Assembly: GCA_017993835.1 (NCBI GenBank)
Contig: JAGOLX010000008.1
Span: 1 to 48,239, forward strand
Source of the DNA: Phycisphaerae bacterium
GTDB taxonomy: Bacteria > Planctomycetota > Phycisphaerae > Sedimentisphaerales > Anaerobacaceae
Length of the DNA: 48,239 nucleotides
Reading direction: 5' to 3'
Shown: positions 2,837 to 5,805 of the stretch, piece by piece
Numbering within the stretch: position 1 is the stretch's first letter
Layout: every line of letters starts with the position of its first letter
Program-made: the position numbers and the translations under genes
Notes under the pieces: generated by a model
Databases searched by the model: none
What the model was told of the DNA's origin: nothing
What the model saw: only the letters and a program-made list of their open reading frames with translations

Positions 2837-2865
2837 TTGACGCCGGTTTAGCACTCTTCTAACAT
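2837..2865 (+). promoter_or_regulatory. near-consensus sigma70-type promoter driving the rny leader RNA
   Basis: TTGACG (2837-2842), a 17-base spacer and TAACAT (2860-2865). Transcription would start near 2872, roughly 480 bases before the rny start codon. Confidence 0.7.
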
Positions 2866-2871
2866 GGCCGA

Positions 2872-3355
2872 TGATAACGACAACTGTGAGCGAACACGGT
2901 TGTGGGTTGTTCCCTGTCGTGTGGGGGGTTGTGGCCCCCCATGGGAGGGATTGTGAGACAGGAGTTGTGAAACCTGTTTCAAATGGCAGCTAAGTTGTAG
3001 AGACACCTGTGGGGTCGCCGCGTTTGAGTTCAGGTAGATACCATCGTCCACTTTCTCCCGGCGGTCTCAGAGGTGAATATCGAGTGAAACGGGATTGAAC
3101 TGGTATGAGTCGTCGCTTCCCTGCGTCGGAGGGGTGTTGTTGAGGAGAGAGTCGGTAAAGCTTCGTTGTTTGACGAGTCTCCAGCCTGTTCTTGACCAGG
3201 AATCGAGGAGACTGTTGGCCCTACCGAGTTGATTCTACACCCACGCGGGAAGTCTGTCGCGTTTCACAAGCACGTCTTTGGAGCTTTCCTGCCTGTCCAC
3301 CCGTAGTTCGCCCATAGCCAAAGCCATTTGTGGACTATGTGTGGAAAGGTAGAAC
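2872..3355 (+). ncRNA. structured long leader or separate noncoding RNA upstream of rny
   Basis: About 480 bases follow a good promoter without a credible gene. Several stem-loops are visible: ACAACTGTG (2880-2888) with CACGGTTGT (2895-2903); six G with six C around 2923-2940; GAGACAGG (2955-2962) with CCTGTTTC (2973-2980); AGTCTCC (3176-3182) with GGAGACT (3207-3213), enclosing CCTG/CAGG. The GACAGG element can also pair with CCTGTC at 2913-2918, so two folds exclude each other. A TTGTG pentamer recurs at 2900, 2929, 2951 and 2965. No T-run terminator is visible before rny, so it may be a 5' leader. I recall 6S RNA genes next to rny in some bacteria, but I cannot confirm a 6S fold here. Confidence 0.45.
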
Positions 3356-4936
3356 ATGGACGCCGTTTTAATGACGATCACCGTCGAGGGCTGGATTGCC
3401 AGTGTGATCGCCTTCGTGCTCGGCGCCTGCCTCTGGGCCATCCTTCAGCAAATCAAGGCCCGGACGCGAGCGAAGACCATTGCCGAAGAGCTCCAAAGGC
3501 AGATCGACGGTGCCAAACGGGAAGCAGAGAACATCATCAAGACCGCCCAGATCGAGGCGGCCGCGGAAGCCATCAGAAAGAAGGAGGAATTCACTAACGA
3601 GGCCAATCGCGTTCGTGCGGAATTGCGAGAGAACGAGCAGCGCCTGTCCAAGCGCGAGGATGTGCTGGAGCGGCAGACCGGACTGCTCCAGGACCAGGAG
3701 AAGACCCTCAAGCAGCAGGAGCAGGAACTGGATCGGCGGATGCGGAACGTCGATGCCAAGGACAAGCAGCTCACGGTCCTGATCGCCCAGCAGAAGAACC
3801 AACTGCTTAAAATCACCGGGATGCAGGTCGAGGAAGCCCGCCAGTTGCTGCTCAAGCGCCTGGAGGACGAGTGCGAGCACGAGATGTCGTCCCTGATCCA
3901 ACGGAAGACGGAGGAAGCCAAGGAGATGGCCGACGACAAGTGCCGCGAGATCATCAGTTGCGCCATCCAGCGGTATGCCGCGGAGCAGACGTGCGAAGTG
4001 ACCGTCTCGACCGTCGAAATCCCGAACGACGACATGAAGGGACGGATTATCGGACGGGAGGGTCGCAACATCCGGGCCTTCGAAAAGGCCACCGGGGTCG
4101 ATGTCATCGTCGATGATACGCCGGGAATGGTGGTCGTCAGCGGGTTCAACCCCGTCCGGCGCGAGGTCGCCCGTCTTTCCATGGAGCGTCTGATCCAGGA
4201 TGGACGAATCCACCCTTCGCGGATCGAGGAACTGGTCGCCCAGACCCGGAATGACGTAAACCACAAGGTGCTCCAGCTCGGCAAGGACGCTTCCGTGGAA
4301 ACCAACATCCGCGGCCTGCCCAACAAGCTCCTGAGCCTGCTCGGGGCCCTGAGTTTCCGCACCAGCTACGGCCAGAACGTGCTTCGGCACAGCGTCGAAG
4401 TCGCGTTTCTCAGCCAGGTCATGGCGGAAGAACTGGGCCTGGACGGCTCCGTCGCACGACGGGCCGGCCTGTTGCACGACATTGGCAAGGCCATCGACCA
4501 CGACGTCGAGGGCAACCACCCGACCATCGGCGCCAACTTCCTCAAGCGGTTCAACGAGTCGTCCATCGTGCTCAATGCCGTCGCGGGCCACCACGGCGAC
4601 GTCCCGCCGGACAACCCGTATACGCCGCTGGTCGCGGCGGCGGACGCCATGAGCGCATCCCGACCCGGCGCCCGACGCGAAACGCTCGAACGGTACATCA
4701 AGCGGCTGGAGAAGCTCGAGGAGATCGCCACCAGCTTCAAAGGCGTGGAAACCGCCTACGCGATCCAGGCCGGACGCGAGATCCGCGTCATCGTCGATGC
4801 CAACGAGATCGATGACGAGTGCGCCATGAAGGTCGCCCGCGATATCGCCGCCAAGGTCGAGCAGGAAATGACCTATCCCGGCGAGATCCAGGTGACCCTG
4901 CTGCGAGAAGTCCGCTGCATCGAGTACGCCAAATAG
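3356..4936 (+). CDS. rny: ribonuclease Y
   Basis: This 526-residue protein has the full RNase Y architecture. It starts with an N-terminal membrane anchor (residues about 12-31). A long charged coiled coil runs to about 200, followed by a KH domain with GRIIGREGRNIRAFE near residue 229. The HD domain has LLHDIGKAIDHD near residue 372, whose His-Asp pair binds the catalytic metal. RNase Y is the membrane-tethered endonuclease that initiates mRNA decay in many bacteria lacking RNase E. The ATG at 3356 is preceded by GGAAAGG; a second ATG five codons later is possible. ymdB follows 20 bases downstream, the gene order known from Bacillus. The long leader upstream suggests post-transcriptional control. 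Confidence 0.97.
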   Translation: MDAVLMTITVEGWIASVIAFVLGACLWAILQQIKARTRAKTIAEELQRQIDGAKREAENIIKTAQIEAAAEAIRKKEEFTNEANRVRAELRENEQRLSKREDVLERQTGLLQDQEKTLKQQEQELDRRMRNVDAKDKQLTVLIAQQKNQLLKITGMQVEEARQLLLKRLEDECEHEMSSLIQRKTEEAKEMADDKCREIISCAIQRYAAEQTCEVTVSTVEIPNDDMKGRIIGREGRNIRAFEKATGVDVIVDDTPGMVVVSGFNPVRREVARLSMERLIQDGRIHPSRIEELVAQTRNDVNHKVLQLGKDASVETNIRGLPNKLLSLLGALSFRTSYGQNVLRHSVEVAFLSQVMAEELGLDGSVARRAGLLHDIGKAIDHDVEGNHPTIGANFLKRFNESSIVLNAVAGHHGDVPPDNPYTPLVAAADAMSASRPGARRETLERYIKRLEKLEEIATSFKGVETAYAIQAGREIRVIVDANEIDDECAMKVARDIAAKVEQEMTYPGEIQVTLLREVRCIEYAK

Positions 4937-4956: not shown

Positions 4957-5805
4957 ATGAAACTGAACATCCTATGCATCGGCGATATCGTCGGCCGGCC
5001 GGGGCGACGTGCGCTCGCGGAGAAGCTCAAACGGCTCATCAGCGAGCGATCCATCGACTGCGTCATCGCCAACGCGGAGAACGCGGCGGGCGGGTCCGGC
5101 CTGACTCCTCAGATCTACGAGAAGCTCCTCCACTACGGCGTGAACCTCGTAACGCTGGGCGACCACGCCTTCCGCAAACGGGACATCATCGAGACGCTGG
5201 AGAAGGCGGACAACATTGCCCGCCCAGCCAACTTCTCGGAGCAGGCCGCCGGGAGGGGAACCGCAATCTATAAGACCGCCAAGGGCCCCACCGTCGGCGT
5301 GATCTCGCTAATCGGTCGGCTCTTCATGAAGCCGGCGGATTGCCCCTATGCCGCGGCAGACAAGCTAATCCCGCGACTCCGCCAGCAGGCGGAGATCCTC
5401 GTCGTCGAGATGCACGCGGAGGCCACCAGCGAGAAGGTCGCGATGGGCTATCACGTCGACGGCCGCACCGCCTGCTGCTTCGGCACGCACACGCACATCG
5501 CCACTGCCGACGAGCGGGTTCTGCCCAAGGGGACCGCGTACATCTCGGATGTCGGCATGACGGGCGCCCATGACTCGGTGCTCGGCCGAAAGAAAGAGAG
5601 CGTCCTGAAGTCCTTCCGCACCCAAATGCCGGTCCCGTTCGAGATCGCCACAGGCGACGTGCGGATCAACGGCATTCTGTTCACGGCGGACAGCAGTACC
5701 GGCCGGGCCGAGCGGATCGAGCGGATCTGCGTGAGCGCCGACGCGGAGGACGCAACCGGCTACGACAGCGACGACGGCAAGCCGGAGTACTTCAACGCCT
5801 TCTAG
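4957..5805 (+). CDS. ymdB: YmdB-type metallophosphoesterase (TIGR00282 family)
   Basis: A 282-residue protein of the calcineurin-like family that in Bacillus acts as a phosphodiesterase and is genetically linked to RNase Y. Metal-site motifs are present: GDIVGRPGR (Asp10), NAENAAGG (Glu41), EMHAEATSEK (His152) and GTHTHIATADERVLP (His177, His179). The usual GNH metal-binding motif reads GDH (Asp68-His69), so the Asn that contacts the metals in studied members is an Asp here. The ATG at 4957 matches the family N-terminus; the frame is open upstream but would overlap rny. The gap to rny is 20 bases, so the two genes are almost certainly cotranscribed. Preferred substrate is unknown. Confidence 0.93.
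   Translation: MKLNILCIGDIVGRPGRRALAEKLKRLISERSIDCVIANAENAAGGSGLTPQIYEKLLHYGVNLVTLGDHAFRKRDIIETLEKADNIARPANFSEQAAGRGTAIYKTAKGPTVGVISLIGRLFMKPADCPYAAADKLIPRLRQQAEILVVEMHAEATSEKVAMGYHVDGRTACCFGTHTHIATADERVLPKGTAYISDVGMTGAHDSVLGRKKESVLKSFRTQMPVPFEIATGDVRINGILFTADSSTGRAERIERICVSADAEDATGYDSDDGKPEYFNAF

Follow-up and report, generated by a model that had tools for sequence, protein, structure and literature searches.

A conserved, structured 5' leader of the RNase Y gene in a planctomycete family, with a possible role in feedback control

The window (the whole stretch of 48,239 nucleotides analysed here) carries at 2872..3355, on the forward (+) strand, what is almost certainly a genuine, conserved cis leader of rny, the gene for RNase Y, as judged from comparison of related sequences. 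To the fuller statement, that this structured 5' leader acts most likely as an RNase Y feedback sensor, we give an even chance; for feedback as the purpose of the leader, taken by itself, our confidence falls slightly short of even. The rny gene (3356..4936, +) was recognised by TIGR03319 (674.9 bits for a cut-off of 454) and by Pfam (RNase_Y_N, KH and HD). Downstream of it lies a TIGR00282 metallophosphoesterase gene (4957-5805), which we take to be of the YmdB type, and upstream, on the opposite strand, lies yebC, with the leader between yebC and rny. The leader is a conserved structured RNA placed directly upstream of a nuclease gene and on the same strand.

The preliminary description had proposed a promoter TTGACG-17-TAACAT followed by about 480 bases without a gene, and both claims were borne out. 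TTGACG begins at 2837 and TAACAT finishes at 2865 (2837..2865, +), with a spacer of 17 nucleotides and 9 of 12 matches to the consensus, and the same promoter with the same spacing and position is found 5' of the leader in the alignment of relatives. The exact form TTGAC[CGT]-17/18-TANN[AG]T occurs in 64 of 71 family leaders, which had been preselected for at most one mismatch to the motif. The predicted 5' end of the leader derives from this promoter, and its description as a conserved structured RNA from fold and alignment; in the family leaders the span between -35 box and ATG is 453 to 669 (median 530). At the other end, the Shine-Dalgarno sequence of rny, GGAAAGG (3343..3349, +), is strongly conserved and the conserved block of the relatives extends into it. 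No gene was found in 2872-3355, where the longest closed ORF has 45 aa and Rfam recognised no known RNA. A hidden coding sequence was rejected from these short frames, 45 aa in the leader of this genome and a median of 47 aa for the longest ORF per leader in the 71 leaders.

The RNA predicted from this region is highly structured with long stem-loops, as had been described. Positions 2872-3355 fold with a minimum free energy of -196.9 kcal/mol, versus a mean of -166 (sd 6.3) for shuffled sequences, which gives a z of -4.89; none of 100 shuffles was as stable. All the elements that follow are on the + strand. The 5' hairpin (2881..2902, pairing 2881-2888/2895-2902), in which 93.4% of the cells are paired over 13 leaders and 4 of 7 pairs changed on both sides, overlaps the 5' strand of a helix P0 (2897..2908), whose partner here is perhaps at about 3309-3320, the register being uncertain in this genome. 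Further on, a hairpin GAGACAGG/CCTGTTTC (2955-2962/2973-2980) is 97.1% paired with 5 of 8 pairs changed on both sides. The 5' strand of P1, GGCAG-CT-AAGTTGTAGAGA (2985..3003), pairs some 270 nucleotides away with its 3' strand TCTTTGGAGCTT-TC-CTGCC (3275..3293), which falls in the match of a profile R2 described below (3237-3295). P2 joins 3004..3008 to 3071..3075 and is found paired in the 13-leader, 71-leader and permutation tests. P3 joins GTGAAACG (3084..3091) to CGTTTCAC (3260..3267), with its inner three pairs counted in an alternative register in the 13-leader test, and P4 joins 3150..3156 to 3228..3234, as found in the 71-leader and permutation tests and, for four pairs, in the 13-leader test.

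Two smaller elements of the preliminary description stood only in part. GACAGG (2957-2962) had been given two mutually exclusive pairings, with CCTGTC (2913-2918) or CCTGTT (2973-2978); the three motifs are placed as claimed in the window sequence, but only the pairing with 2973-2980 is conserved. The aligned relatives do not keep the partner at 2913-2918, and the GACAGG switch is accordingly not conserved. The TTGTG motif is present in the sequence, one copy being in the P0 strand, but as a repeat it was found unconserved on reading the alignment.

The fold was compared among relatives using the sequence upstream of rny from 75 loci of the window's family and 24 loci belonging to the order's other families. 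The family alignment used 71 of the 75, after dropping L017 (no promoter within one mismatch), L037 (cut by a contig end), L063 (near-identical to L062) and L041. A set of 52 leaders, obtained by dropping by eye 19 diverged rows from the 71, served for the duplex permutation, Shine-Dalgarno pairing and terminator tests; single steps left out four more with long P2 loops and, elsewhere, one. Columns in which gaps were the majority were left out of the family alignment, the covariation tests and the 71-leader pairing test. The upstream regions align over their full length within the genus and in blocks across the family, and RNAalifold returned the same core plan from the family alignment and from 13 near leaders. 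In this plan, P0 (GAUUGUGG/CCACAAUC) closes the whole domain, its 5' strand additionally forming the local hairpin in the 13 near leaders, and the second hairpin is located between P0 and P1. P1 pairs GGTAG-UU-AAGUUACAAAGA with UCUUUGUAGCUU-UC-CUGCC and closes a core that varies little in length (median 308 nt, range 285-395, 52 rows). Inside P1 are P2 (CACUUUU/AAAAGUG), P3 (GUGAA-ACGAAAUC/GAUUUCGU-UUCAC) and P4 (AAUCAGC/GCUGAUU, with the variants AUCAAC/GUUGAU and AUCAAU/AUUGAU read from the alignment).

The pairing was measured in several ways, in all of which the shuffle and permutation controls leave some relatedness in and the structure is taken from the same alignments. Over 47 pairs in the 13 leaders, 97.1% of the cells are paired versus 93.7% in shuffles and 15 pairs changed on both sides versus 5.7; none of 500 shuffles reached any of five measures, and sliding the helix registers by 1-3 positions lowered the pairing to 39-45%. 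Over the 71 leaders, P1a is 91% paired, P1b 86%, P2 85%, P3a 83%, P3b 82% and P4 85%, none of 200 shuffles being as high for any of them. In the 52 leaders, the P0 strands of a same leader form a duplex of -16.2 kcal/mol versus -13.9 for permuted strands, a difference reached by none of 2000 permutations, and the same count (0/2000) was obtained for the duplex energies of P1, P2, P3 and P4. Cells with G-U outnumber those with A-C by 90 to 12 in the 13 leaders and by 319 to 145 in the 71, and because of this excess the + strand is taken to be the RNA. Stems that are conserved and show paired changes were thus found, but not covariation beyond a phylogenetic null: with 20 null alignments and a MAFFT alignment without structure awareness, no pair was obtained at E<0.05 (best E 1.0 with 71 rows and 8.1 with 52). 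Relatedness explains less well the excess of G-U over A-C and the fold of a second family. Single stem-loops and promoter-like sequences can turn up at random, but chance structure was rejected in view of the conserved paired changes, the folding z and the permutation results, and the probability that either chance structure or a hidden coding sequence accounts for the region is practically negligible.

The linker between the core and the Shine-Dalgarno sequence shows two peculiarities. Five leaders (L020, L022, L023, L028 and L030) have a linker of 103-192 nt versus the usual 45-60, due to inserts with inverted repeats that occupy an identical position in leaders of several genera. A motif like TTTTTAACTCTATGANAACTGCAAGGGAAAGG recurs in the linker of the family leaders before the Shine-Dalgarno sequence, with no consistent terminator hairpin alongside.

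Similar leaders turned up by DNA search in 10 of the 61 genomes compared, the window's own among them; RNase Y is present in 59 of these 61 and in 77 of 89 genomes of the window's family. Two profiles were then used, R1 from the P1 5' strand to the P3 5' strand (48 leaders) and R2 from the P3 3' strand to the P1 3' strand (51 leaders), both sequence-only because RNAalifold gave no common pair on the R1 alignment. With the stricter filters of searches spanning more than 40 genomes, at which weak matches are lost, R1 gave a single match in each of 60 genomes among the 161 of the order (59 belong to the window's family, and the remaining one, G037, E 8e-4, to a second family, f2), and R2 matched 29 of 397 genomes of the class, all of the window's family and, by eye, at rny. 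All 60 R1 matches are on the strand of rny and 248-404 nt upstream of it, and no R1 copy away from rny was detected among the 161 genomes; since the models were built from rny leaders, this result means that no copies were detected elsewhere and is not an independent finding of rny.

These matches also bear on the possibility that the region encodes an independent noncoding RNA, for example a partner or sponge of RNase Y, which would be a neighbour of rny by position only, its transcription running on into the gene. An own promoter, a compact fold and a gene-free upstream region would suit such an RNA, but the 60 matches out of 60 directly upstream of rny, one per genome, speak against it, as does the conserved block continuing into the Shine-Dalgarno sequence of rny. 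Intrinsic terminators were not a consistent feature of the linker that separates the core from rny: at -4 kcal/mol, 10 of 52 leaders had one versus 13 of 156 shuffled sequences. The separate small RNA envisaged earlier is disfavoured by the same observations, and we consider an independent RNA quite unlikely. A cis leader is the plain reading, because no consistent terminator precedes rny and the conserved block reaches its Shine-Dalgarno sequence.

Outside the window's family, the plan of the leader is kept in f2 with other P0 and P2 sequences, according to the fold predicted by RNAalifold from six leaders. P1 is kept there as AAGUUACAAAAG/CUUUUGUAGCUU, whereas P0 becomes GCGGAUAA/UUAUCCG and P2 CACUG/CAGUG or CACCG/CGGUG; the P0 strands of the two families correspond in position and differ in sequence. 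The f2 leaders (L044, L047 and L050-L053) have in the P2 loop a conserved CGGCGATAGAG...CTCAAGTCG not seen in the window's family. In a motif search allowing at most two mismatches, both P1 strands were present in 48 of 75 family loci, in 3 of 6 f2 loci and in none of the 18 loci belonging to the order's other families, four of which have something like one P1 strand and four something like the other. Among 20 loci representing further families of the class, the P1 3' strand was found in none, the 5' strand in one (L163, about 619 nt before rny) and both in none. The regions upstream of rny in L158, L163 and L168, from these other families of the class, are clearly more stable than mononucleotide shuffles and are possibly unrelated structured leaders. 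Together, the comparison shows a conserved promoter, the fold and its strand, a fixed position ahead of rny and no detected copies elsewhere, and on this evidence the leader is linked to rny in one family of the order and, in an altered form, in another.

Size and structure alone would allow the leader to be a diverged 6S RNA, an RNase P RNA or a member of another known family. Searches with Rfam (release 15, 4227 families), which carried out the check suggested for 6S and other RNAs, gave no match at the curated cut-offs in the window leader or in 14 related loci. The rne5 and rne-II models of RNase E leaders, taken to be among the families of that release, did not match the leader, and neither 6S RNA (RF00013) nor RNase P RNA (RF00010) exceeded its Rfam cut-off there. 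With E up to 10, the single hit in the leader was a plant microRNA at 3287-3354 (E 0.83, far below cut-off), which was dismissed as chance. The genome has its 6S RNA, likewise a structured RNA, on another contig (G000:C54:31408-31593, 55.7 bits, above the Rfam cut-off) and its RNase P RNA at G000:C62:79313-79820. These loci refute the idea that the leader is the sole copy of either RNA; the diverged 6S RNA is excluded, and membership in any known family is very improbable. The RNase P RNA itself measures 479-536 nt in eight genomes of the window's genus versus 354-370 nt in four genomes that represent other families of the order. The leader, having no Rfam match, represents a new RNA family, with a job that is probably of a known kind.

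We propose that transcription would start at the conserved promoter and produce a 5' leader of the rny mRNA, the first 430 nt or so of which would form a compact domain closed by the long-range helices P0 and P1, followed by a short linker with the Shine-Dalgarno sequence and then by rny. This domain would act in cis on the expression of rny. Its most likely role would be that of sensor in a feedback loop: RNase Y present in excess (or its degradosome) would bind or cut the leader, and the stability or the translation of the rny mRNA would fall. Of the four readings offered in the preliminary description, the regulated leader, with RNase Y autoregulation as an option, is the best supported.

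Feedback is held to be the likeliest use because of parallels with RNase Y from B. subtilis and RNase E from E. coli. In B. subtilis, RNase Y is reported to regulate its own gene by cleaving within the 164-nt 5' UTR of rny and the early ORF, whereas E. coli RNase E binds a stem-loop of the rne 5' UTR (PMC10303841, the latter in its discussion). Compared by description, the two rny leaders precede the same gene and the B. subtilis one also has a sigma-A-type promoter, its UTR and early ORF being the targets of RNase Y feedback; it differs by its length and by many cleavages along the UTR, with no conserved folded domain described in the passages compared, while the planctomycete leader has about 480 nt and a conserved long-range fold. 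The rne-II element is listed as RF01756 in a table of PMC2864571. Both rne5 and rne-II resemble the present leader as structured, conserved leaders of the gene for the main endoribonuclease initiating decay, and differ by their gene, phyla and fold, the planctomycete leader having no Rfam match. These elements of the RNase E 5' UTR are presumed to serve feedback.

Several features argue against feedback by RNase Y. A simple cleavage target would require neither a core of about 300 nt nor so strong a constraint, many of the unpaired bases being conserved, and in B. subtilis the leader has just 164 nt. Moreover, the core was unrecognised in other families of the class (both P1 strands in 0 of 20 loci) though rny is present, so that such a loop would not be general. 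The large fold closed by long-range helices and the strong conservation of certain unpaired segments, for instance AATTTAG between P2 and P3, would also fit a riboswitch-like sensor responding to a metabolite, an ion or an RNA-state signal, in which a rearrangement of P1 or P0 would alter the access to the Shine-Dalgarno sequence of rny; CUUUCC of the P1 3' strand is complementary to its GGAAAG. However, the sequestering pairing shows no clear covariation (29 of 2000 permutations with CTTTCC and 597 of 2000 for the flanks), its mean predicted probability is 0.04 in the 52 leaders, and the linker has no consistent terminator. A switch sequestering the Shine-Dalgarno sequence is therefore not clearly supported, the permutation test failing outside the near-invariant bases, and we regard a riboswitch-like sensor as unlikely. 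The broader idea of a new class of large regulatory RNA built on the core of about 300 nt is rather unlikely. Such an RNA would itself respond to a small molecule or to the condition of the cellular RNA pool and so govern how much of the main mRNA-decay enzyme these planctomycetes make, or, once released from the rny mRNA, it would be an RNA partner of RNase Y.

Returning to the rny leader as such, our full-text literature searches found nothing on planctomycete RNase Y or rny, on noncoding RNA in Sedimentisphaer, or on an rny riboswitch or RNA motif covariation, and in the literature searched the way planctomycetes set their capacity for mRNA decay is apparently unstudied. The leader described here suggests that structured leaders arose in RNase E lineages and in RNase Y lineages alike, in each case for the principal endoribonuclease, and it would offer a defined, testable element for the control of mRNA decay in planctomycetes.
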